Origin: Arboricoccus pini
Lineage (GTDB): Bacteria > Pseudomonadota > Alphaproteobacteria > Geminicoccales > Geminicoccaceae
Length of the DNA stretch: 64,000 bases
Direction: 5' to 3'
NCBI RefSeq assembly: GCF_900187945.1
Contig: NZ_FYEH01000006.1
Span: 1-64,000, forward strand
Part shown: positions 3,034-58,050 of the stretch, piece by piece
Layout: each line of letters opens with the position of its first letter
Numbering within the stretch: the first letter of the stretch is position 1
Position numbers and translations under genes: made by a program
Notes under the pieces: model-generated
Database searches by the model: none
Seen by the model: the letters and a program-made list of their open reading frames with translations, nothing else
Told to the model about the DNA's origin: nothing

Positions 3034-3244
3034 TTTTGGGTCTCCTCCGGTATGTCTCGTGGCTGCGTCAGGCGATCCCTCAAGCCGCGGTCGGCTCGAG
3101 GGGACGACAACATAGCGCATAATCGGCTGGGAAGAAGTCCGGAGGCCGCCTTGGGCATCGGGACCCCCTCGCTGCTCGGATGTTTCGGGGCGGACAAAAC
3201 CGCTCTAGGGTTGCAGGGATGAGGGCGGCAGCAGGAACCAACGA

Positions 3245-4009
3245 ATGAGCGATCGGGTAAGCGCGCAGGAGATGGACGAGACCGCCGCCCCCCCGGCGAT
3301 GGCGCATGATCTGGAGCGGCACGAATGGCCGATACTCGAGAAGCTGAGCGACCGGCTCTACGCGCAGATCTATGACGAGATCGCGACCGGGGCCTTCCTG
3401 CCCGACACGCGCCTGCCCAGCGAGACCGCGCTGGCGCAGCGCTTTGCCGTCTCCCGGCCGGTGGTGCGCGAGGCTCTGGCGCGGCTGCGCGACCATGGCC
3501 TGATTAGTTCGCGCCAGGGCTCGGGATCCTGGGTGCGACGGCGCCCGAGCCAGGCCCTGCCGTGCTTCGCGCCCTTGAGCAATGTCGCGGACATCCAGCG
3601 CTCGTTCGAGTTCCGCATCGCCATTGAGGGCCAGGCGGCGGCCCTGGCGGCCGAGCGCCACGACGTGCGGACGCTCGCGCGCATCCGGGCGACGCACAAC
3701 GCCATTCAGCCTCTGACCGAGGCGCAGACGGCCGGTGCGCCGGCGGATTTCGCCTTTCACATGGCGGTGGCGGAGGCGGCCCGCAATCGTTTCTTCGCCG
3801 CGGCCCTGGCCATGCTGGAATCGCATGTGCAGACTGGCATGGAGGTTTCGCACAATCTGAGCCTGGGGCAGCCAGGCTACCGGCCCTCGATCGTGCAGCA
3901 GGAGCACGAAGCCGTCCTCGCGGCCATCGAGCGGGGAGATGCCAAGGCCGCGCGGCGGTTGATGGAATCGCATATCGACAATGCCCGCCGGCGCATGTTC
4001 GACGGGTGA
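3245..4009 (+). CDS. GntR-family regulator (FadR subfamily)
   Basis: This is a 254-residue FadR-type transcription factor. The N-terminal winged helix-turn-helix spans about residues 38-105 (LYAQIYDEIATGAF, LPSETALAQRFAVSRPVVRE, GLISSRQGSGSWV). A C-terminal all-helical FCD ligand-binding domain follows, with E-x(2)-H and H-type metal/ligand residues (FEFRIAIEG, FHMAVAEAARN, HEAVLAAIERGD). The family usually represses sugar-acid or organic-acid catabolic genes. The lactonase gene starts 52 bases downstream on the same strand, so that gene and its sugar lactone pathway are the likely target. Confidence 0.9.
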   Translation: MSDRVSAQEMDETAAPPAMAHDLERHEWPILEKLSDRLYAQIYDEIATGAFLPDTRLPSETALAQRFAVSRPVVREALARLRDHGLISSRQGSGSWVRRRPSQALPCFAPLSNVADIQRSFEFRIAIEGQAAALAAERHDVRTLARIRATHNAIQPLTEAQTAGAPADFAFHMAVAEAARNRFFAAALAMLESHVQTGMEVSHNLSLGQPGYRPSIVQQEHEAVLAAIERGDAKAARRLMESHIDNARRRMFDG

Positions 4010-4060
4010 CCCGGCTCGATGAGCGATCGCACATCGAGCCGGACTTCCAGGAAGGATCAC

Positions 4061-4942
4061 ATGGCAAAGGTCGAAATAGAGTGTGTGCTCGACATCAAGG
4101 CGAAGACGGGCGAAGGGGCCGTCTGGGACGTGCGCGATGCCGCCCTTTGGTGGTGCGACATCCCCAATGGCTGGCTCTATCGCTACGATCCGTCGTCCGG
4201 CCAGAATCGGCGCTTTGAGATCGGCGAGCCTTTGGGCTGTCTGGCGTTGCGCGAACAGGGCGGTCTCCTCCTGGCCCTACAGTCCGGCTTCTGGTTCTTT
4301 GACCCTCAGACGGGCGCGAAGACGAAGATCACGGATCCCGAGGCCGACAAGCCGCAAAATCGGTTCAATGACGGCACCACCGATCCAAAGGGTCGGTTTT
4401 GGGCGGGTACGATGAAGAACGCGGGCGCGCCGGAACCCAGCGGCTCGTTCTATCGCCTCGATCCGGACCTCGACGTGACCTTATGGAAGTCAGGCTTCTT
4501 CACGACCAACGGCCAGACATTCAGCCCCGATGGCCGCGTCTACTATTATTCCGACACCAACCGCGACGTGCGCACGATCTTTGCGGCCGATTACGACCTT
4601 GACACGGGCACGCCTTCGAACGAGCGAGTCTTCTTCGACACACGCGCGGTGGCCGGTCGCCCGGACGGCGCCACCGTCGATGCCGACGGCTGCTACTGGA
4701 TGGCCGGTGTCGGCGGCTGGCAGGTCGTGCGGCTGACGCCAGGGGGCGAGGTCGACCGGATCGTCGAGCTGCCCGTCGAGCGGCCGAGCAAGCCGATGTT
4801 CGGCGGGGCAGGGCTGGACGAGCTCTACGTCACCACGATCGCCACGGCCGAGCCCGATCCGGCCCAGCCGCAGGCGGGCGGGCTATTCAAGATCTCGGGC
4901 CTGGGCGTCAAGGGGTTGCCACAGCGTCGCTTTGCCGGCTGA
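4061..4942 (+). CDS. SMP-30/gluconolactonase family sugar lactonase
   Basis: This is a six-bladed beta-propeller lactonase of the SMP-30/GRE family, 293 residues. The ATG at 4061 follows AGGAAGGA with good spacing; an in-frame ATG at 4019 has no such site. Metal-site signatures are present: the Glu in TGEGAVWD near residue 18, NRFNDGTTDPKGRFWAGTM in the middle, and NGQTFSPDGRVYYYSDT and GRPDGATVDADG later. Family members hydrolyse sugar lactones such as arabino-, xylono- or gluconolactone. It is probably controlled by the adjacent GntR gene. Its stop lies 2 bases from the stop of convergent aroA. Confidence 0.9.
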   Translation: MAKVEIECVLDIKAKTGEGAVWDVRDAALWWCDIPNGWLYRYDPSSGQNRRFEIGEPLGCLALREQGGLLLALQSGFWFFDPQTGAKTKITDPEADKPQNRFNDGTTDPKGRFWAGTMKNAGAPEPSGSFYRLDPDLDVTLWKSGFFTTNGQTFSPDGRVYYYSDTNRDVRTIFAADYDLDTGTPSNERVFFDTRAVAGRPDGATVDADGCYWMAGVGGWQVVRLTPGGEVDRIVELPVERPSKPMFGGAGLDELYVTTIATAEPDPAQPQAGGLFKISGLGVKGLPQRRFAG

Positions 4943-6889: not shown

Positions 6890-9105
6890 CACCTGAGGCC
6901 CCTCTGGATATCGAAGCGTGCGTCCGCGAACCGATCTACAATCCGGGCACCATTCAGCCCCACGGCACACTTCTTGTCCTGGACCCGTCTACCTTTCGTG
7001 TGGTTCAGCGCGCGCGCAACCAGGTCGAATTCCTCGGATGCGACGATCTCCTCGACCAGGAGCTCGACGGTTCGCCGGGACTGGGCAGCCTCCTGGTCGA
7101 GCGGCTCCGCGCCTGGCGAACCGCCGACGAGCCCGTCCTCCTCACCTCGATCCTGCACCAGCACCGCCGACTGCAGGTCGCCGCAAACCGGACGGCACAG
7201 GGCATTCTCGTTGAGATCGAAGCCTCCGAGGAGGGCCACCCGACAGAGGCGTTCTATTCAAGAATGGGCCACGTTCTCGACATCCTTGGGAGCGCATCCG
7301 ATATCCCTGGCGCAGGCGCCATCGCGACCCGCGAGTTGCGTCACCTCACAGGATTCGATCGCGCCCTCCTCTACCGATTCGACAGAGCCTGGAACGGCAC
7401 CGTCATCGCCGAAGACGGCAATGGCCGCCTGCCCTCCTACATGGGCTTGCGCTTCCCGGCCGGCGATTTCCCTCCTCAGGCACGCGCTCTCTATAAGAAG
7501 AGCAGGTTGAGGCTCATATCCGACAAGGACCACATTCCCGTCCCGATAGAACCCTTGCTCAGTCCCCTCGATGGCAAGCCGCTCGATCTTGGCGCCACCA
7601 CGCTTCGCAGCGTCTCCCCTATCGATCTCGAATACATGCGCAACATGGGAACGGCGGCTTCCATGTCGACCGCCATCCTGCTCGATGGCGAACTCTGGGG
7701 CTTTCTTGTCTGCCACCATACCGAGCCGCGCCATCTTGGCACCTCGTTGCGCGCCGCCTGCGACTTACTCGGCCAGCTGATCGCGCAACGGATAGGCGCC
7801 ATCGAACGCATGGCGCAGCGTGGCGATCGCCTGGCCCGCCAGAGGCTCAAAGGCGCGTTGCTGAAGGGCATCTCGCGCGAGGGCGGCTTCGAGACCGGGC
7901 TCGTGCGCCACGGCGATATCTGGCTGCGCCTGGCCAGGGCCGAGGGAGCCTCCCTGGTCACCCAGGAGAACGTCTATTCCGTCGGCCGCACGCCGCCTTC
8001 GAGCGTGACGCAACGGCTGGCCATCCTTTTGCAGCAGCGGGGGGTGAAAGACCTCCTGGCGACCGAGCAGCTTTCCAGCTTCGCGCCCGAGTTCGAGCCG
8101 CATGCCGACACCGCAGCCGGTATGCTAGCGCTGCCTATCTCGCAACTCCACGCGAGCTACCTCATCTGGTATCGACCCGAGGTGATCCAAACAGTTCGCT
8201 GGGCGCGCGCCGCCGCCAAACCCCGGACGGCTGGCGAGCGCCTGACGTCCCGCGCCTCATTCGCCCAATGGACAGAACTGGTCCGCCTGCGCTCGGAGGT
8301 CTGGAGCCAGGTCGACATCGAGGCGGTCGGCAGCCTGCGTTCCTCCATTGTCGACTTCGTCCTGAAGCGCGCCGAGGAACGGGCCGCGCTCACGAGCGAG
8401 CTCGAGCGCAGCAACCACGAACTGGAATCCTTTTCCTATTCGATCAGCCACGACCTGCGCGCGCCCTTTCGACACATCGTCAGCTATGCCGAACTCATGG
8501 GCGAACGGCTGCCAGAACTCGACGAGACATCACGACACTACCTCGACACCATCAGCGCGGCGGCCCTCGCGGCGGGTCGGCTCGTCGACGATCTGCTCCG
8601 TTTCTCCCAGCTCGGCCGCGCCAGCCTCTCGCTCCACCCGATCGACATGCAAAAGCTGCTGAACGAGGTGTTGCACGCTCTGGAACCCGATGCGGCCGGA
8701 CGCCAGGTCGACTGGCGGGTCGGCGACCTGCCGCCCGCCTGGGGCGACACCCCGCTCGTGCGTCAGGCGGTTCACAACCTGATGGAGAATGCCCTCAAAT
8801 ATACACGCAAGCGGGATCTGGCCGTGATCAGCGTGGAGGGCCGCCAGAAAGACCAGACGACGGTCTATCGGATCACCGACAACGGCGTGGGCTTCGACAT
8901 GCGCCATGTCGGTAAACTGTTCGGCGTCTTTCAGCGCCTGCACCGGGTGGAAGATTTCGAAGGCAGCGGCATCGGCCTTGCCATCACCAAGCGCGTCATC
9001 GATCGGCATGGCGGCTGGATCCGCGCGGAAGGTGAACTGGACAAGGGGGCCTCATTCACATTTGCGTTGCCGAGGCAGGAGCAGAAGGAAGTGCCCTCGC
9101 GATGA
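6886..9105 (+). CDS. bphP: Bacteriophytochrome histidine kinase
   Basis: This is a red/far-red photoreceptor kinase of 739 residues, cytoplasmic. The PAS domain starts with the biliverdin-attachment Cys12 in EACVREPIYNPGTIQPHG, the classic bacteriophytochrome signature. The GAF domain carries FPAGDFPPQARALY, where the conserved Asp (residue 194) matches the PxSDIP aspartate that contacts the chromophore pyrroles. A PHY domain follows, then HisKA with phospho-acceptor His522 in SISHDLRAP, and a HATPase_c domain with NLMENALKYT, DNGVGF and GSGIGLAI. No bphO heme oxygenase is adjacent. The gene overlaps the genes on both sides by 4 bases, so the whole operon is probably co-translated. Confidence 0.95.
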   Translation: MTPEAPLDIEACVREPIYNPGTIQPHGTLLVLDPSTFRVVQRARNQVEFLGCDDLLDQELDGSPGLGSLLVERLRAWRTADEPVLLTSILHQHRRLQVAANRTAQGILVEIEASEEGHPTEAFYSRMGHVLDILGSASDIPGAGAIATRELRHLTGFDRALLYRFDRAWNGTVIAEDGNGRLPSYMGLRFPAGDFPPQARALYKKSRLRLISDKDHIPVPIEPLLSPLDGKPLDLGATTLRSVSPIDLEYMRNMGTAASMSTAILLDGELWGFLVCHHTEPRHLGTSLRAACDLLGQLIAQRIGAIERMAQRGDRLARQRLKGALLKGISREGGFETGLVRHGDIWLRLARAEGASLVTQENVYSVGRTPPSSVTQRLAILLQQRGVKDLLATEQLSSFAPEFEPHADTAAGMLALPISQLHASYLIWYRPEVIQTVRWARAAAKPRTAGERLTSRASFAQWTELVRLRSEVWSQVDIEAVGSLRSSIVDFVLKRAEERAALTSELERSNHELESFSYSISHDLRAPFRHIVSYAELMGERLPELDETSRHYLDTISAAALAAGRLVDDLLRFSQLGRASLSLHPIDMQKLLNEVLHALEPDAAGRQVDWRVGDLPPAWGDTPLVRQAVHNLMENALKYTRKRDLAVISVEGRQKDQTTVYRITDNGVGFDMRHVGKLFGVFQRLHRVEDFEGSGIGLAITKRVIDRHGGWIRAEGELDKGASFTFALPRQEQKEVPSR

Positions 9106-41640: not shown

Positions 41641-41715
41641 GGACCCCTAGCTCAATGGTAGAGCATTCGACTTTTAATCGACCGGTTCCGGGTTCGAGTC
41701 CCGGGGGGTCCACCA
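41641..41715 (+). tRNA. tRNA-Lys (anticodon UUU)
   Basis: This is a 75-base tRNA with encoded CCA. The acceptor GGACCCC pairs with GGGGTCC; the D arm is GCTC/GAGC; the anticodon loop CTTTTAA gives UUU; the T arm is CCGGG-TTCGAGT-CCCGG. The top pair of the anticodon stem is mismatched (T-C). Its 3' end is the integration target of the element to the right. Confidence 0.95.
41699..41715. repeat. attL (tRNA 3' end copy)
   Basis: TCCCGGGGGGTCCACCA, the end of tRNA-Lys, is identical to 58034-58050. Confidence 0.92.
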
Positions 41716-41816: not shown

Positions 41817-43376
41817 ATGGTTGCGATGGCCTCACCTTGGCGACATCCGAGCACCGGCGTCTATCACCTAAGGCGGCGCATTCCGCTGGACCTTCGAGCG
41901 GCTTTTCACGGCCGTGACATCGTAAAGCGCTCACTGAGGACCAAAGACCCAGCCGAGGCCAAACGGCTCTTTGTTGCCGCCAATGCTGAGCTGGAGGCGG
42001 AGTTTGAGGCGGCCCGAAAGCGGCACCCGGCCAGCAATGCCCTCTCGCCGCTTCCTGCCCAACGAGAGATCACCAGCGAAGACGTGAACCGCATAGGCCA
42101 CAACTTCCTTGTGCAACTCCTAGAGGAAGACGAAGGGGCGCGCTCCGAAGGCTTGGACGACAGGTATTTTCGGAAGCTCACGGACACCTCTGAGTGGGTT
42201 CAAGAGATCGCCCGCATCAGCTTGGCCCGAGGCGATCTCTCACTCAACGATGACAACATTTCGGAGGCGCTAGCTGCTGAGGGCTTGAGTGCTGAAAAAG
42301 ACTCGCCCGCGTATCGAGCCGTGGGAATGGCGATCCTTAAGGCGTTCGTTACAGCCGGTGAGTTGGAGAGCCGCCGCAATCAAGGCGAGGTGGTTAACAC
42401 GCCAGATCGCATTGAACCGCCCGGCGTGACACCCAGCGGCCCAACCTTGAGCCAACTCTGTGAGCGCTGGGCAGCCGCGACGAACCCAACGGGACGCACG
42501 GCAAAAGAGTGGGCCATGTCCGCCCGCCGTTTCGATGAAATCACCAAGAGCACTCCTATTGAGGCACTCACGGTCGAGCAGATCGAGGCTTACCGCGATA
42601 GCCTTCTGGCGTCAGGGAAGCACCCCGCCACGGCTAAGAAGCTTGTGGGGGCAGTCCGCACCCTCCTGAACTTCGCCACCGAGAAACGCCTCATCCCAGC
42701 CAATCCGGCTGCATCCGTGCGCGTCAAGGTGACCAAGGCGCCGTTGAAGCGACGGCTTCCGTTCGACGCTGACGACCTCAGGACGATCTTCAAGGGCTTC
42801 CCGGTGTTCACCCAGCGGGAAAGGCCGAAGGCTGGCGGCGGTGAGGCGGCCTACTGGCTTCCGCTTTTGGCGCTCTATACGGGGGCCAGATTGGAGGAAC
42901 TGGGGCAGGCTCTCCTGTCGGACGTGAGGACAAGCCCTGATGGCATTCCTTATCTAGACATCAACGACGATGACCCTGGCAAGAGCCTGAAGACCATCAG
43001 CAGCCGCAGGCGCATTCCGCTGCATCCTCGCCTCATCGAACTCGGCTTTGGCACCTATGCCGATGACCTCCGGTCCAAAGGGCAGGTCAGGCTATTCCCT
43101 GAGCTTCAGCCCGACGTGTTCGGCAAATGGACCGGCAACTGGTCCAAGTGGTGGGGACGCTACAGCAGGCAGCACGGCATGACCGATCCGCGAAAAGTCT
43201 TTCATAGCTTCCGGCATGCGTTCAAGGATGCTTGCCGAGACGCGGATATACCGCGAGAGGTCCATGACGCACTTACGGGCCACTCAGAGGGCCGCAATGA
43301 GGGCGAAGGGTATGGCACCGGGTTCAGCCTTAAGAGGCTCCATGAGGCGATCTGCAAGCTCAGCTATAAGCCGTAG
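41817..43376 (+). CDS. int: Tyrosine recombinase (integrase)
   Basis: This is a 519-residue phage-type integrase. An N-terminal DUF6538-like domain (GVYHLRRRIPLDLR) and a SAM-like core-binding domain (TPIEALTVEQIEAYRDSLL) precede the catalytic domain. Active-site residues: Arg358 in YTGARLEEL, HSFRHAFKD, LTGHSE and the nucleophile Tyr499 in GYGTGFSL. It catalyses integration into and excision from the tRNA-Lys gene. It lies 101 bases from the tRNA. Its end overlaps the next gene's start. Confidence 0.95.
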   Translation: MVAMASPWRHPSTGVYHLRRRIPLDLRAAFHGRDIVKRSLRTKDPAEAKRLFVAANAELEAEFEAARKRHPASNALSPLPAQREITSEDVNRIGHNFLVQLLEEDEGARSEGLDDRYFRKLTDTSEWVQEIARISLARGDLSLNDDNISEALAAEGLSAEKDSPAYRAVGMAILKAFVTAGELESRRNQGEVVNTPDRIEPPGVTPSGPTLSQLCERWAAATNPTGRTAKEWAMSARRFDEITKSTPIEALTVEQIEAYRDSLLASGKHPATAKKLVGAVRTLLNFATEKRLIPANPAASVRVKVTKAPLKRRLPFDADDLRTIFKGFPVFTQRERPKAGGGEAAYWLPLLALYTGARLEELGQALLSDVRTSPDGIPYLDINDDDPGKSLKTISSRRRIPLHPRLIELGFGTYADDLRSKGQVRLFPELQPDVFGKWTGNWSKWWGRYSRQHGMTDPRKVFHSFRHAFKDACRDADIPREVHDALTGHSEGRNEGEGYGTGFSLKRLHEAICKLSYKP

Positions 43377-43717: not shown

Positions 43718-44695
43718 ATGCTCGTGGAAGCAATTTGTCCAATCTGGGATGTTCCGGCCGAGCGCGATCCTATCGTTGGAAATGCCGTCACCTACCGTTC
43801 TCCGCGAACGGACGGCGCATATACCTTAATCCGCGCCGCCCTGCCGATGCTCCAGAATCTCGATGAGGCTGCTAAGGCACGCCTAACTTCATGGGTGGTC
43901 GAGCAGCACCGCGCCGGCGATGAGTCTCCGAGGATCACATCAGACACCCTGTCCTTGATTGAAAACAAGCACTCTATGCCACTGAACCGCAGGTTCGATC
44001 AGCTACTACTGTTCTTCGCCACCCGAGAGCGCATACTCGGCTATAGGCTCGATCTCGGGAACCAGCACACAAACCAGTTTTCAGATGATGGGGCGGCGGC
44101 TGCGGCATGGACCGAGTGCAGAACGATCCAAGAGTTAGCCAATCTTTGTCGTCTTCTTATGGGGCGTCGCCTTGTCCAATTTAACGGCGGCGAACTTTCA
44201 CTGACTGTGAATGGGTATGAGCGGCTTGAGGTCCTGCAGACGCAACCCACTGTCTCTCTCCAAGGCTTCGTTGCGATGTGGTTCGATACCACGATGGACG
44301 ACGTCTACCAGCGAGGCATTGCACCTGCCATCGAAGACTGCCGCTACACTCCAATGAGGATCGACCGCAAGGAGCACATCAATAAGATTGACGATGAGAT
44401 CATAGCCGAGATCAGAAGGTCACGCTTCATGATCGCTGATTTTACCTGCGGCACCATCTCAGATGGTGAGCGCAAAGAAGCAATTGCCCGCGGTGGTGTT
44501 TATTACGAGGCGGGGTTTGCTCGGGGTCTGAACATACCCGTCTTCTGGACTTGCCGCAAAGACATGATCGAACACGTCCACTTCGACACGAGACAATACG
44601 CGCACATCTTGTGGGAAGACCCCGATGAACTCAGGAAGAAGCTAAAGAACTGTATCGAGGCGGTGCTCGGCACGCGGTATATTAGCGCCCCTTGA
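43718..44695 (+). CDS. Nucleoside deoxyribosyltransferase-like protein, possible defence cargo
   Basis: This is 325 residues. The C-terminal third has the nucleoside 2-deoxyribosyltransferase-like pattern: GFVAMWFDTTMDDVY, AIEDCRYTPMRIDRKEH, IDDEIIAEIRRSRFMIADFT, GGVYYEAGFARGLNIPVFWTC and HFDTRQYAHILW. The N-terminal 180 residues look like a sensor or helix-turn-helix region of unknown type. Such domains act as nucleotide or NAD-related effectors in several conflict systems (established for the superfamily, not for this protein). Position beside the integrase fits accessory cargo. Confidence 0.7.
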   Translation: MLVEAICPIWDVPAERDPIVGNAVTYRSPRTDGAYTLIRAALPMLQNLDEAAKARLTSWVVEQHRAGDESPRITSDTLSLIENKHSMPLNRRFDQLLLFFATRERILGYRLDLGNQHTNQFSDDGAAAAAWTECRTIQELANLCRLLMGRRLVQFNGGELSLTVNGYERLEVLQTQPTVSLQGFVAMWFDTTMDDVYQRGIAPAIEDCRYTPMRIDRKEHINKIDDEIIAEIRRSRFMIADFTCGTISDGERKEAIARGGVYYEAGFARGLNIPVFWTCRKDMIEHVHFDTRQYAHILWEDPDELRKKLKNCIEAVLGTRYISAP

Positions 44696-45373: not shown

Positions 45374-45741
45374 AGCATCTAGCCGTCCTGCTATCTCTGC
45401 TAGCCGCTGCCCCGGCCGTGGCCGCGACACCTCGCGTTGTCGATGGCGACACGCTGGTCCTCGATGGCACGCGGTGGAGGCTGTGCGGTATTGATGCGCC
45501 CGAGCACGATGCGCCTGGCGGCTCAGAGGCTACGGCATACTTACACAAGCTCGTAGACGGCCGAGACGTAACGTGCAGCCTCGCCTGCAACCGAACAGAC
45601 CGATACGGACGCAGCGTGGGGTTCTGTAGCGTCGCAGGTAAGGACCTTGGCCGCCTCATGATCGACGCCGGGCATGCCTGCCGCTGGGCGCGCTATGATA
45701 ACGGCGTCTATCGAGGTGCCGAAGAGTGCAAGAGGCGCTGA
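45370..45741 (+). CDS. Secreted staphylococcal-nuclease-like protein
   Basis: This is a 123-residue SNase-like nuclease. A signal peptide (AVLLSLLAAAPAVAAT) leads into VVDGDTLVLDGTRWRLCGIDAPE, with the calcium-site Asp residues and catalytic Arg and Glu, and then DRYGRSVG with the second catalytic Arg. Four Cys could form disulfides, as suits a periplasmic enzyme. It may degrade incoming DNA in the periplasm or serve superinfection control; this is inference. Confidence 0.88.
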   Translation: MKHLAVLLSLLAAAPAVAATPRVVDGDTLVLDGTRWRLCGIDAPEHDAPGGSEATAYLHKLVDGRDVTCSLACNRTDRYGRSVGFCSVAGKDLGRLMIDAGHACRWARYDNGVYRGAEECKRR

Positions 45742-46279
45742 AAAGGCAGCCGCCCGCCAACGTGGTGCAGTCACCGCCCACGCCTTCAAGCAGTGGTTCC
45801 ACAAGACGCTCATACCTGAGGTCGAGCGCCGGATGGCCCCCACGGAGAAGGTTCGCTTCGGCTTTATTGACGAGGCCAAGCCCGAAGAGAAAGCCCCAGC
45901 CGCCCCCGTCAATGACCGCCTCGCGCACCTCGTGGGCGGCACCGAACTCGTCACCGCGCGTGACGGCAAGGTGTTCACCACGAGCCTTCAGGTGGCGAAG
46001 GTCTTTGGGAAGCGCCACGACAACATCCTAAGCCTGATCGACAGCATCTCGTATCAGGCGGGGAGCACTGCACTTGATTTTAAGTTCAGTAGCTACACAG
46101 ACGTCACGGGGCGCAAGCTGCGGATGTTCGAGATGGGCCGAGACGGGTTCACGCTCCTCGCCATGGGTTTCACTGGGGCCAAGGACCCGATCGAGCAGGC
46201 GGGGGCAGTCTGCTCAATTTTAAGCAGACCCCCACATAGAGCCTCAAGGCGGCCACATAGGACTTCAGCTCAAAATTGA
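45695..46279 (+). CDS. Rha-type phage regulatory protein, C-terminus altered
   Basis: The pRha domain is clear: LVTARDGKVFTTSLQVAKVF, GKRHDNILSLID and a tail FEMGRDGFTLLAMGFTGAK. The normal continuation (KxxxFKxxYIxAFNxME) is replaced by a short unrelated Arg-rich tail that runs into a palindromic region. The start is uncertain: ATG at 45695 or GTG at 45716, both inside the SNase gene. Rha proteins act as phage antirepressors or interfere with infection; this copy may be truncated. Confidence 0.75.
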   Translation: MITASIEVPKSARGAEKAAARQRGAVTAHAFKQWFHKTLIPEVERRMAPTEKVRFGFIDEAKPEEKAPAAPVNDRLAHLVGGTELVTARDGKVFTTSLQVAKVFGKRHDNILSLIDSISYQAGSTALDFKFSSYTDVTGRKLRMFEMGRDGFTLLAMGFTGAKDPIEQAGAVCSILSRPPHRASRRPHRTSAQN

Positions 46280-48457: not shown

Positions 48458-49816
48458 ATGGACGAACCAGCAGCATTACTCATAGTAGACACCGGGGAGG
48501 GGCACAGAGGGGTAAATACTACCACTTGTTGGACCCGAGAGCAGCTAGAGCGGTCCTCCCGCCTTGAATTGACCCGGCAACCTGCCACCCCAGCCGGTCA
48601 TGCTCTGATCAGGACCATAGCCAGCCGCATAGTGGACCACGAGCAATCCCGAGGCAGGCGCAAGAGGGGCCAAGCCGAGATCGATGTCCTTTATCGTGGC
48701 CTAGGCTGCGTCGTCGGTGGCGTGCTTGCGCAGTGGGCTGAGACGCGGCTCCCAGTGTACCGCTCCACCTCTAACATATCCGCCTTCACCGGCCTTCCCG
48801 TGTCGTTCCGACAGTTCCTCTACCTGATGGACACCCTGGAGACACTTGGGCTTCTCAATAAGAAGCGCTCGTGTTTCACCGATTACGGCTTTGGGCGCAC
48901 CTACAAGGCGGCTCAGTATTGGCCCTCCGAAGCGCTCCTAGCGTTCGCGTCTTCACACGGCATCGACCCGATCCGTGACTACCCAGCCGTATCCTATGGC
49001 TCCCCGAGCAAGCTTCCGCCGCAAGGGCCGATTGTTGTCGAAGAGCACGCCACGAAGCAGGCCCTCGGCAATGGCAAGTCCGTCAAGGTCAAGGGCAAGT
49101 CGATTGCCTACGACCCGCTGGACCCGCTGGCTATCGAGTATGCCGAGTTCATTGCTCGCCTCAATCAGCGAGTGGCCGAGGCCGACATCAAGGGCGTATC
49201 CACGCCAGCCTTCTTCATCAAGTGCAGCGGCAGCCTCAACCTTCACAGCCGCATCTACAACGGAGATTGCGAAGTGAATTATCAGAATATCCCGAAAGAG
49301 CGCCGCAGAGCTGAGGTGATCATTGATGGCGAGCCCACCGCTGAGATCGATTATCACGCCTCGTGGCTCTCCCTTCTATATGCAGCCTCCGGGACTGCGC
49401 TCCCAAAGGGGGACCTCTACACCATCCCCGAGTTGGACCGAGCTTGCGTCAAGGCGTTCGTCACGGCCACCATTGGCAATGGCAAGCCGCTGAAGAGTTG
49501 GCCTTCCCGAGCAAAGGCAGCGGCCAAGGGCCGGCCACCGTTCAAGGTGGTTGCAGCCAAGGTGCTAGCCAAGCATCCAGTTCTGCATCACCCGGCCGTT
49601 CTAGTGGGTGTTCACCCCGAATACTGCGCCAAGGCGCTGATGCACATCGAAGCGGGCCTTCTTCGCGCCGCCATCGACTTCTTTGCGCCAGGCGTAGCGC
49701 TCCCCCTGCATGACGCTCTGATCGTTCCCAAAGGGATGGCGCAGCGGGCCAAGGAAGCAATGCTTCGTGCTGCCGCCCTCGTCGACGCCGAGATGCGGGT
49801 GACCATCACCGGCTGA
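48458..49816 (+). CDS. Putative replication protein with PolA-like palm motifs
   Basis: This is 452 residues from the ATG at 48458 (AGAAGG upstream); in-frame ATGs at 48407-48425 are possible. The middle N-terminal part (YRSTSNISAFTGLPVSFRQF then LMDTLETLGLLNKK) looks like a winged helix. The C-terminal half has three blocks in family A polymerase order: AEIDYHASWLSLLYA (Asp298, motif A), RACVKAFVTATIGN (Arg328-x3-Lys332, motif B) and ALPLHDALIVP (His418-Asp419, motif C). The spacing is shorter than in PolA. I infer a minimal polymerase or Rep protein for the element; no published family name comes to mind. Confidence 0.6.
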   Translation: MDEPAALLIVDTGEGHRGVNTTTCWTREQLERSSRLELTRQPATPAGHALIRTIASRIVDHEQSRGRRKRGQAEIDVLYRGLGCVVGGVLAQWAETRLPVYRSTSNISAFTGLPVSFRQFLYLMDTLETLGLLNKKRSCFTDYGFGRTYKAAQYWPSEALLAFASSHGIDPIRDYPAVSYGSPSKLPPQGPIVVEEHATKQALGNGKSVKVKGKSIAYDPLDPLAIEYAEFIARLNQRVAEADIKGVSTPAFFIKCSGSLNLHSRIYNGDCEVNYQNIPKERRRAEVIIDGEPTAEIDYHASWLSLLYAASGTALPKGDLYTIPELDRACVKAFVTATIGNGKPLKSWPSRAKAAAKGRPPFKVVAAKVLAKHPVLHHPAVLVGVHPEYCAKALMHIEAGLLRAAIDFFAPGVALPLHDALIVPKGMAQRAKEAMLRAAALVDAEMRVTITG

Positions 49817-53614: not shown

Positions 53615-56176
53615 ATGGCCGACACAAACGATACCATCCTCTCGCGCTCGGTCCGTTCAGGCGGCCAGCGCCCTGTCCCCTCTAGGGACAACCCCCTGCG
53701 TTCACTTGCAGGCCAAGGCCGCGATGTTTCCACCACGGGAAACTTCATGGTGGCAGGAGCTAGGCCCAACGGCTCGGACACCGAGCAGGCCATGGCGCTA
53801 GCGCGATCCCTCAAGGACTTCGCTCCAGACCTCGGTAACTTCTTCGGCACCCTTGAGGACAGCCGCAAGCAGGCAATGGAGCAGGCATACGAGAGCAAGC
53901 TCGGTGGGCTGACCTTGGATGAGGTCAAAGCCAAAGTTGCCGAAGGGCGGATCGATAACTACGACGACCCTTACTTTCAGGCAGCACTCCACAAAGGCAT
54001 CGGCATCAAGCAGGCGCAGGCGGACATCTTGGACCTCCAGTCCCGCATGGCCGGCCAGAAGACCGACAACGGGGACCCCATCGATCCCACCGACCCTGAT
54101 GCCATAGACCACGCCAAGTCCGCCCTGTATCAGCAACGCATGGGGCAATATGAGGGAAACGAGTATTTCACCTCAGGCTATCTCCCGCTCCTCGATCAGG
54201 TGGGCTCACAGCTAACAACGGCAGCGGCAGAGGGGCGCAACAGCAAGCTCAAGACGGCGGCTATTGACACGGCTGGGGCAGCCATCGAACAGACGCTTAG
54301 CAACGGCAAGGCTAGCGGGGCCGACATCAACACGACCTTGGCCGGCATCAATAGCAGCCGAGCCGGACTGATGAAGGTCTATAATTTCGCGCCTCAGGAC
54401 TGGGATAACATCCTCCTGGCGACCGCTGACAAATATGCTGACCGTGGGGATGCCACCACGGCTTCGGCAATCCTAGATTACCGCAATGAGGCCGGCGGTT
54501 CCCTTTCGGGGAAACTCTCCTTGTCCCCCAAGGTGTCTGCGATCAGGGAGAAGGCCCTCGCTCAGCAGTCAAAGACCAACAGCGAGGCCTTCATCAATGC
54601 CCGCGTGCAGGCCCGCCAGATGGCCTCTAATGGAGAGGACCCGTCAGATTACATCGCCAGTGTTGAGGGGAAGGCCCCCGGCACCTTCTCAGCGAGTGAA
54701 CGCGTTGCCCTGAGTGACCAAGCGTTGGACCGGCAGCGAACCCTTCGTGCCCAGCAAGAGGAGGCCACCGCTAGGTTCGCCATTGATCAGCAGAACGCCA
54801 ACGCCAAGAACGCCATCCTTGCCCACAATATGGCTGGTAGTGAGCCTCCCCGTGGTTCCGATATGATCCCGGCCGGTCTCACCCTGACGGATGTGCAGGT
54901 GCCGAAGTACTCCTATGGCAAGTCCGAGCCGGAGATGATCACGTATACGGCAGAGCAGCAGAGGAACGATCTAGCACAGCGCTATTTCAATCAGCCTGAT
55001 CGGCCCGGCGAGACACCATCTCAGCGGTTTGAGCGAGAAAGCCTTTGGGCAGAGGCTAATGGGATAACTGACGGCGCAAGCTGGATGTCTATCGCTAAGA
55101 GTGCCCCCGCCGCACTCTCTGTGGCTGGGGCCACGGGAAACATTCAGTCCACCAATATGAAAAGCCTTCAGACTGGCTATGCAACGTACAATGCCCTCCG
55201 CACCCGTGGTTCTGATAACTACCTTGCCCGCCTTCTACCGCAGGACACGCGGGACACTTATGAAGGTATCCGGTTCCTGACCACGGAAGGCGGCCAGACC
55301 TTCGAAGACGCCGCAAGGACGGTCGCAAAGTCCCGCTTTGATGAGAGCAAGCTCACTGTTGAGGACAAAACTATACGCGCGTCCAAGCTGGAGGACGCCG
55401 TTTCTGGCATTACCAGTTCACTCCGTGATGGCTGGTTTAGCGGCCCATCTGGAGGCGGCCAAGGTCTGGCTATATCCAACCCCGGAGACATCCAAGCCCG
55501 CATCAGGGACCTTGCCCAGCGCCTCGTGGTCAACGGCCTTCCTCAGGACGTAGCTGTGGCTCAGGCTGCCAAGCGGGTGCAGGACACCACGGTCAACATC
55601 AACGGCTACGCTACGTCATCCCTCGGCCTCCCTGACGGTATTGCTCCCGCAGCCGAGCAGTACGCCCAACAGTGGATCAAGGATCATCCTGAAGACGAGC
55701 TTGAGGCAAAGGACCTGAAGTTCGTTCCCCTTAACGACACCGGGGGCGGCTTTGCCATGGTGGATGCGCGGGGCGGCCTCGGTCGCAGCATCATCCCCTA
55801 TGTGTCTCCGCAGGCCATCATGAAGTCCTACCAAGACCTTAAGCTGGGCCAGCTACAGGACGCACGTGCTGCTGAAGCTGCCCGCCGTGAAAACAATGCG
55901 AGGAACGCAAAGGACCGCCTGTCCACCGGCAGTGCACCTCAGGCATCCTCGGCTGCTACCTCTGGGCAGGGTCCGGTCAATGTCAGCGGGTTCGTCAAAG
56001 GCGTCGCTGATGAGAACCTGCAAGCCCAGACGGAGGCGTCTGAGGCAGGCGCAAACGGACAGTATGTCCCCATTGAGCCAGCACCGGGTATCCCGCCGCA
56101 GTCCATCACGGACCTTATCGGCAAGCTGACGGGCCTCGGTGTGGACACTGCGCCGGGCAGTAAGGGCCAGCACTGA
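53615..56176 (+). CDS. T7 gp15-like internal virion (ejection) protein
   Basis: This is 853 residues, mostly helical with no transmembrane or enzymatic motif. The block NYDDPYFQAALHKGIG at about residues 116-131 resembles the DDPYxxxALxxxxG block of T7 gp15-type internal virion proteins, and the layout (disordered start, long helical body, disordered Gln/Ser/Gly-rich end) fits. In podoviruses such proteins form the ejection tube across the envelope. It is the largest gene of the element, and its usual partners (portal, capsid, gp14, gp16) are absent. Similarity is by eye, so medium confidence. Confidence 0.55.
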   Translation: MADTNDTILSRSVRSGGQRPVPSRDNPLRSLAGQGRDVSTTGNFMVAGARPNGSDTEQAMALARSLKDFAPDLGNFFGTLEDSRKQAMEQAYESKLGGLTLDEVKAKVAEGRIDNYDDPYFQAALHKGIGIKQAQADILDLQSRMAGQKTDNGDPIDPTDPDAIDHAKSALYQQRMGQYEGNEYFTSGYLPLLDQVGSQLTTAAAEGRNSKLKTAAIDTAGAAIEQTLSNGKASGADINTTLAGINSSRAGLMKVYNFAPQDWDNILLATADKYADRGDATTASAILDYRNEAGGSLSGKLSLSPKVSAIREKALAQQSKTNSEAFINARVQARQMASNGEDPSDYIASVEGKAPGTFSASERVALSDQALDRQRTLRAQQEEATARFAIDQQNANAKNAILAHNMAGSEPPRGSDMIPAGLTLTDVQVPKYSYGKSEPEMITYTAEQQRNDLAQRYFNQPDRPGETPSQRFERESLWAEANGITDGASWMSIAKSAPAALSVAGATGNIQSTNMKSLQTGYATYNALRTRGSDNYLARLLPQDTRDTYEGIRFLTTEGGQTFEDAARTVAKSRFDESKLTVEDKTIRASKLEDAVSGITSSLRDGWFSGPSGGGQGLAISNPGDIQARIRDLAQRLVVNGLPQDVAVAQAAKRVQDTTVNINGYATSSLGLPDGIAPAAEQYAQQWIKDHPEDELEAKDLKFVPLNDTGGGFAMVDARGGLGRSIIPYVSPQAIMKSYQDLKLGQLQDARAAEAARRENNARNAKDRLSTGSAPQASSAATSGQGPVNVSGFVKGVADENLQAQTEASEAGANGQYVPIEPAPGIPPQSITDLIGKLTGLGVDTAPGSKGQH

Positions 56177-58033: not shown

Positions 58034-58050
58034 TCCCGGGGGGTCCACCA
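58034..58050. repeat. attR (displaced tRNA 3' end)
   Basis: TCCCGGGGGGTCCACCA matches the end of tRNA-Lys exactly; this is the original 3' end displaced by the insertion. Confidence 0.9.

Follow-up and report, generated by a model that had tools for sequence, protein, structure and literature searches.

Introduction

What is encoded by a reading frame that carries three polymerase-like blocks behind a possible winged helix, and what would its product do on the element that bears it? The question is raised by one gene (product P0001) of the window, i.e., the whole stretch of 64,000 nucleotides of Arboricoccus pini DNA that was analysed. A preliminary description had proposed a minimal PolA-like palm fused to a winged-helix region, perhaps a combined initiator-polymerase. 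The assignment of P0001 as a winged-helix polymerase of the TV-Pol/divPolA2 type is well supported by sequence comparison and modelling.

Reading frame and motifs

The frame of P0001 (Table 1) is uninterrupted; Shine-Dalgarno-like AAGAAGG directly precedes ATG 48458, and an alternative start, TTG 48407, is possible. A single copy is present in the genome. The three blocks of the preliminary description were recovered at their places: Asp298 within EIDYHASWLSLLYA, R-x3-K as R328ACVK332 and HD as H418D419 in ALPLHDALIVP. Their family A order was borne out by profile alignment to D705, R754/K758 and H881/D882 of E. coli DNA polymerase I (Pol I), and the spacing is indeed shorter than in PolA (D298 to D419, 121 residues; 705 to 882 in E. 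coli Pol I, 177). The bare three-block pattern was returned by 3 of the 378 window ORFs of at least 60 aa and by 183 of 5000 shuffles of P0001; it is weak alone, and the case for the motifs rests on the homologues.

Pfam search of P0001 gave only Cdc6_C (E 0.24), NCBIfam no match, and phmmer against the PDB only RAP-domain matches (E 0.057 and 0.094); search of the PDB with the family profile gave nothing significant (best: ORC2 winged helix, E 0.22). Hits of Pfam and NCBIfam over 29 family members were confined to single members. Neither the model of P0001 nor the family scans showed a recognisable exonuclease domain, in line with the absence noted at the outset.

Table 1. Features of the polymerase gene and of the island that carries it (window positions; residue assignments and domains as predicted by alignment or model).
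Feature	Position	Strand	Basis
tRNA-Lys (TTT), integration target	41641..41715	+	
attL, 17-bp direct repeat at tRNA 3' end	41699..41715	+	
Tyrosine integrase (DUF6538 + phage integrase), ORF intact	41817..43376	+	Pfam, PHROGs
Phage Rha-type regulator	45674..46279	+	Pfam, PHROGs
ParB-like protein directly upstream of P0001	47483..48355	+	Pfam, PHROGs
TV-Pol/divPolA2-type polymerase gene P0001, 452 aa	48458..49816	+	ORF, homologues, model
N-terminal domain, residues 26-178	48533..48991	+	modelled alone, pLDDT 91.3, pTM 0.86
Winged helix-turn-helix, residues 72-156 (H72-96, H107-111, H117-129, E133-142, E148-156)	48671..48925	+	full and domain-alone models
Polymerase domain, ~residues 185-452 (hairpin, palm, fingers; thumb-like helix 223-241)	49010..49813	+	full model, fold comparison
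R265 of beta-hairpin = Pol I R668	49250..49252	+	profile alignment; 53/54
D298, motif A catalytic Asp = Pol I D705	49349..49351	+	profile alignment; 54/54
W303 at Pol I E710 steric-gate position	49364..49366	+	H in 35/54, E in 1/54
D319, fingers = Pol I D732	49412..49414	+	posterior 0.34; 48/54
R328-x3-K332, motif B = Pol I R754/K758	49439..49453	+	posterior ~0.5; 52/54 each
H418-D419, motif C = Pol I H881/D882	49709..49714	+	50/54, 54/54
attR, second exact copy of 17-bp repeat	58034..58050	+	

Homologues and equivalence to Pol I

The following sets were used: A2, 29 proteins (duplicates L001, L007-L009 and L034 and broken or short L015, L029 and L032 left out); A7, P0001 and relatives without the fragment L047; A8, without 3 of 17 sequences having little N-terminal domain; and a 54-row set, composed of A2, 16 relatives of A7, AUR84708, L053-L059 and the phage ICP1 protein (without L047 and L060) and taken as aligned by MAFFT, without hand-checking.

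Conservation in homologues, proposed beforehand as a check, spoke for the motifs: the best-conserved residues include them (counts of the 54-row set in Table 1; both Asp invariant), and outside them R265 and R283 (53 of 54 each) and N236 (invariant in A2 and A7) are also conserved. At least one of R265, R283, R328, K332 and H418 is missing in 6 of the 54 homologues, AUR84708 among them. P0001 itself has I254 where at least 90% of A7 have R, H263-S264 where the family usually has G-G, and A420 where 43 of 54 homologues have S.

Comparison of the family with 21 Pol I sequences by hhalign gave E 5e-6 (probability 86%) and, with another match-column rule, E 2.1e-5 (77%); all such probabilities were below 90%. 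Controls for the latter setting: reversed Pol I alignment, E 0.52; best of 40 column shuffles, 0.074. The residues equivalent to those of E. coli Pol I are R265 (R668), Q276-P279 (Q677-P680), D298 (D705), H418 (H881) and D419 (D882), all with posterior of at least 0.94; R328 (R754) and K332 (K758) are aligned with posterior of only ~0.5, and R283 (R690; 0.44) and D319 (D732; 0.34) weakly, the register in the fingers depending on the common RxxxK spacing. By alignment, P0001 has what defines family A: motifs A, B and C in order, two putative catalytic Asp and R-x3-K. It differs from E. coli Pol I, matched residue by residue at these positions, in its tighter motif spacing, in having no recognised exonuclease domain, and in that E710, F762, Y766 and E883 of the latter are not conserved in its family.

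Predicted structure

The AlphaFold2 model built from P0001 and 16 relatives had mean pLDDT 83.1 and pTM 0.60. Foldseek of this model against the PDB returned family A DNA polymerases first (E from 5.8e-5; TM ~0.3 of the whole query); VIA-align gave, over P0001 residues ~185-452, Z 14.1 with apPol (224 aligned, 3.5 Å), 13.6 with yeast mtRNAP and 13.5 with T7 RNAP. Fold prediction and fold comparison, the other check put forward earlier, were accordingly favourable: a palm is predicted and the matches are of family A, so that the modelled fold is that of a family A palm with fingers. Among viral models, unnamed or uncharacterised proteins were matched over nearly the whole of P0001 (E down to 1.2e-20), as was the 'DNA polymerase' of Rheinheimera phage Barba31A (E 2.9e-19, TM 0.43-0.45). 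TM over the viral matches was 0.40-0.50 and rmsd ~9-13 Å; the placement of the domains therefore differs.

A winged-helix-like N-terminus had been a guess. The N-terminal domain modelled alone (Table 1) bears it out, its helices and two-stranded wing following one another as in winged-helix domains, and at least 55 residues were aligned to the winged-helix stretch in 51 of 54 homologues. The observation of a motif-bearing mini polymerase with a winged helix is thereby confirmed. Against the PDB the domain gave no Foldseek match at E ≤0.001 (best E 0.037) and no VIA-align match of Z ≥8 (best Z 6.5, LmrR); many of the chains matched are presumably winged-helix proteins. The matches being weak and generic, a winged-helix fold is proposed from the model and no specific winged-helix family is claimed; kinship to one such family was considered and dropped, as no PDB match was significant, and a family's absence from the matches does not speak against it. 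A search of the literature on TV-Pol and divPolA2, which did not cover Iyer's additional file (TV-PolN alignment), found no winged-helix assignment, and within the searches made the assignment appears to be new.

The same domain (26-178) also aligned weakly with the N-terminal region 62-258 of T7 RNA polymerase (Z 5.8, 113 residues), tied with generic winged-helix matches; this alignment is a lead for RNA polymerase ancestry.

Relation to described polymerases

The features that define TV-Pol (Iyer 2008, PMC2579912) are a thumb formed by a bi-helical coiled coil, an absolutely conserved Arg in a beta-hairpin, two Asp in the palm and, in the fingers, a conserved Asp and RxxxK. One subset, associated with integrases, resolvases and transposases, was described there as having an N-terminal domain predicted to be all-helical, and another subset as having a D5-like helicase partner (PMC2579912). 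The hairpin Arg (R265), both palm Asp and, in the fingers, D319, R328 and K332 were found in the family at the frequencies of Table 1. For the thumb there is a single clear long helix, 223-241, ahead of the hairpin in the model, thumb-like only. P0001 further resembles TV-Pol in its extra N-terminal domain, in having no recognised nuclease fusion and in its place on a mobile element, with the neighbours of the first subset: an integrase in the island and in L037-L039, a resolvase in L176. The differences are the beta wing of the modelled N-terminal domain, against the all-helical prediction, and the element, in which no D5 helicase was recognised. Ma-LMM01, a TV-Pol carrier according to Iyer, gave no hit in the whole record; among its ORFs of at least 150 aa (150 of 162 kb) the best position-consistent match was MAP_030, beside transposases (E 1.1).

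The group divPolA2 of Caudoviricetes phages has AUR84708 as representative (Yutin 2024, PMC11348598, in the part available). The same part reports no detectable similarity of its N-terminal domain to known domains and no homologous thumb. AUR84708 (L066:2177-3469) matched profile A2, of which it is no row, with E 3.2e-41 over residues 20-423 of 430 (71 proteins searched). The match spans the N-terminal part too, the link being made via the family profile and not pairwise. As in divPolA2, a palm is predicted in P0001, no exonuclease is recognised and an N-terminal domain is added, and the model matches the Barba31A polymerase. Unlike the phage proteins, P0001 sits on a bacterial integrative element, its N-terminal domain models as a winged helix, and a thumb-like helix is seen in the model where none homologous was reported. 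From the AUR84708 match and the features of TV-Pol it follows that P0001 groups with divPolA2 and that this group carries the TV-Pol signature. P0001 is thus a member of a group that is known, if little studied, and not a new enzyme kind; the earlier remark that such a protein would be unusual holds only in part, since the class was published in 2008 under the name TV-Pol and in 2024 under that of divPolA2.

A third system for comparison is CcPol, the SCCmec primase with partner MP, which without MP only extends primers (PMC7581432 and PMC10061031, both in part). CcPol-MP and the PolA-SSB pairs share with P0001 a polymerase of family A that is borne by an integrative element and is proposed to synthesise the element's DNA, and CcPol needs an extra ssDNA-binding part; in CcPol this is a separate OB-fold protein, whereas the extra domain of P0001 is the predicted winged helix in the same chain. 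No gene for an OB-fold SSB or a helicase, the mark of PolA-SSB pairs, was found by sequence scans adjoining P0001.

Ribonucleotide gate

E710 and F762 of Pol I discriminate against ribonucleotides; CcPol keeps both, and CcPol-MP used only dNTPs in the assays (Bebel 2020, PMC7581432, in the part available). To the knowledge of these authors, as given in that part, no other TV-Pol had been characterised as of 2020. In the reference Pol I set, E is present at 710 in 21 of 21 sequences and F or Y at 762 in 21 of 21. In the P0001 family the 710 position holds E in a single member (Table 1), and the 762 position F in 1 of 54 and Y in none of 54. The position of Pol I Y766 (T7 RNAP Y639) is N or G in 49 of 54. 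The residue after the motif C Asp is Ser in 43 of 54 members and in 20 of 20 T7-like RNA polymerases; it is E in 20 of 20 readable Pol I sequences (Ser in 0 of 20).

As far as the searches went, loss of E710 and of F762, each in 53 of 54 members, appears to be new. What E710 mutations do in the Klenow enzyme bears on such a loss. Judged from the alignment, the lost gate would admit NTPs, and the products of the P0001 active site may be RNA or mixed primers. CcPol, compared by description, takes dNTPs only and has both gate residues, which P0001 has lost, and is therefore an imperfect precedent (PMC7581432, in part).

The island

P0001 lies within a 16.3-kb island that starts at tRNA-Lys. The 17-bp att repeat has no further match in the window with up to 2 mismatches allowed, and in 100 simulated sequences the longest match to the tRNA was at most 12 bases. 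The integrase starts 101 bases past tRNA-Lys. G+C is 60.0% in the island and 65.0% in the left flank; the right flank is also low (61.4%). The ParB-like protein scored under the curated cut-off of Pfam ParB_N, its PHROG ParB matches being stronger; a conserved ParB-TV-Pol pair was rejected, no ParB homologue being found among the ORFs of the other loci searched. The island also carries an SNase gene and a protein with an HNH-type PHROG match. Neither a D5 helicase nor an SSB was recognised in 18 element proteins, of which 8 were scanned with Pfam and PHROGs and 10 with PHROGs only, so the usual primase partners are not evident.

Two further island genes were recorded. The product of 43718-44695 has a C-terminal TIR/deoxyribosyltransferase-like part (PADLOC TIR effector, E 3.4e-5; PHROG 16139, E 2.3e-41) and is a possible defence gene by these matches; the 853-aa protein 53615-56176 matched nothing in PHROGs or PADLOC, and in Pfam only RE_TdeIII, below threshold (E 2.1e-4).

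Distribution of relatives

As single query P0001 found 4 phage records (2 with E <0.001) and 4 plasmids (2 with E <0.001). Of 31 whole genomes of its order it matched none but its own, and of 96 relatives 3, its own among them; single-protein scans of genome contigs and viral contigs gave no relative, nor did two later viral scans. Of the 385 alphaproteobacterial genomes sampled, 26 were matched by a six-member profile, a count that includes the genome of the window and two suppliers of profile rows. A 29-row profile matched 24 of 398 genomes sampled across the phylum, 23 being from the same class as the window (again with the window's own and several row suppliers). Queries with two other members matched 152 and 183 phage records, which include ICP1 and 115 Rheinheimera phages; homologue L020 matched the 115 Rheinheimera records and the genome of AUR84708 at E 2e-5. 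All 29 members of A2 match PHROG 4756, labelled unknown function. The group is thus widespread, yet in the phage records listed it is mostly labelled 'hypothetical protein'.

Pfam scans covered selected genes among 241 neighbour ORFs (for L041 and L042, without the nearest small ORFs). The ORF directly upstream of the polymerase is an integrase in L037, L038 (frames overlapping by 4 bases) and L039; L005 has a divergent integrase and an HTH gene just before the polymerase; the upstream genes scanned in L040-L042 gave no Pfam match. Restriction or methylase genes lie near the polymerase in L004, L005, L042, L044, L050, L051 and L176. In G135 (L176, contig 14), the 19,900 of 21,261 contig bases covered form a tandem array in which a unit of 8.8-8.9 kb recurs with >99% identity between copies; the unit has genes for RepA_C, ParA-like, resolvase, Dam-type methylase and TV-Pol; by its sequence the array is perhaps a small circular plasmid assembled as concatemer, or tandem copies. 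The initiator of this unit is likely RepA, and since the unit has its own RepA, the TV-Pol need not initiate.

Possible function

Fold, catalytic residues, winged helix, element ends and relatedness to phage divPolA2 are supported by alignment and model. The explanation preferred for them, with a chance put just above even, is that P0001 would be a primase-polymerase serving its element, the winged helix holding the template and the loss of the gate admitting rNTPs. After excision or during transfer it would prime and extend strands on element DNA; the winged helix would hold single-stranded or origin-proximal template and so do in cis, by analogy, the job of MP for the SCCmec primase CcPol; the missing gate would allow start or extension with rNTPs as well as dNTPs; and bulk synthesis would be left to host or phage replicases. 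That an enzyme of this type is neither sole initiator nor sole replicase is suggested by the separate RepA beside one relative and by the regular PolB carried by barbaviruses (PMC11348598, in part).

A bolder reading makes the whole winged-helix TV-Pol/divPolA2 group self-contained single-chain initiator-primases: the fused winged helix would direct them to element DNA, and their family A palm, both Pol I ribonucleotide gates being lost, would make RNA or a mixture of RNA and DNA. It is rather unlikely; if true, priming would have a route that differs from those of DnaG, of AEP and of the CcPol-MP pair with its dNTP-only synthesis, and that integrative elements would have in common with small plasmids and with phages such as ICP1. 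A literature search found no report of activity for a winged-helix member. With the divPolA2 link, the winged helix and the gate loss, the choice between DNA polymerase, RNA polymerase and primase becomes directly testable with one purified protein.

P0001 might instead be a DNA polymerase that depends on a primer and serves the element in repair or gap filling, its winged helix adding DNA affinity only. Such an enzyme would agree with the top structural matches, which are family A DNA polymerases, and with CcPol, which without MP only extends primers (PMC7581432, in part). Repair is also one of the options weighed for divPolA2, the phages having a regular polymerase too (Yutin et al., PMC11348598, in part). 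Loss of the dNTP-selecting E710 and F762 in 53 of 54 members each would be odd for a DNA repair enzyme, however; integrases or a resolvase lie beside several relatives, and no repair-partner-like gene was recognised in the element, despite the SNase and the HNH-type match. Such a role is considered unlikely.

Less likely again is a single-subunit RNA polymerase that transcribes element genes or makes primer transcripts, the other option weighed by Yutin et al. (PMC11348598, in part). The Ser after the motif C Asp, as in T7-like enzymes, the family hairpin GR-[FL]-Y, which resembles T7 GRVY, the absence of both Pol I gate residues, the Z values for mtRNAP (13.6) and T7 RNAP (13.5), and a match of 1 of 29 members to PHROG RNA polymerase family 2051 (E 0.0059) all point this way. 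Kinship to T7 RNAP by sequence was rejected, the profile comparison being not significant (best E ~0.05, with a narrow set of RNAP templates); the Y639 position is N or G in 49 of 54, and no T7-like promoter-recognition domain was recognised, the N-terminal match of Z 5.8 being weak.

The combined initiator-polymerase first imagined, in which the winged helix would recognise the origin of the element, stands in its first half: a minimal family A palm with fingers and a winged helix are indeed joined in the model. The initiator role is improbable. The winged-helix stretch is widely aligned (51 of 54 members), and there are weak, non-significant resemblances to Cdc6/ORC winged helices (E 0.24 and 0.22) and, by Foldseek, to the replication proteins RTP, DnaD and Rep (E >0.03); against this, the matches of the winged helix are of a generic kind, with LmrR the best at Z 6.5, and one relative shares its unit with a separate RepA_C protein.

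A decaying remnant without function in this genome, as the departures from family consensus at 254, 263, 264 and 420 and the single copy might indicate, is very improbable, the ORF being intact, D298, R328, K332, H418 and D419 all retained, the att repeats exact and the integrase ORF intact. Membership in an anti-phage defence cassette, a possibility raised for PolA-SSB pairs (Rice 2023, PMC10061031, in part), is scarcely credible despite the TIR-like gene on the island and the restriction or methylase genes near some relatives, for P0001 has no PADLOC match and phages such as ICP1 also carry members.

Further observations on relatives

Gp100 of ICP1 (L062:2446-4119, MW794185.1), annotated hypothetical, belongs to the P0001 polymerase family: it matched profile A2, of which it is no row, with E 1.7e-42 (71 proteins searched); a literature search for it gave no relevant paper among the matches listed. 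Some genomic copies look broken from their reading frames: the copy in L015 (G179) is split into two ORFs by a stop, and the match G755:C35:456150-457448 has four in-frame stops. Single stops occur in six further matches of the 29-row profile in the phylum search and may be gene ends. One viral contig, L050, carries two divergent polymerases of the family (3087-4397 and 7816-8835), their starts 4.7 kb apart; a C5 methylase gene separates the two, and an SMC-like gene lies alongside.
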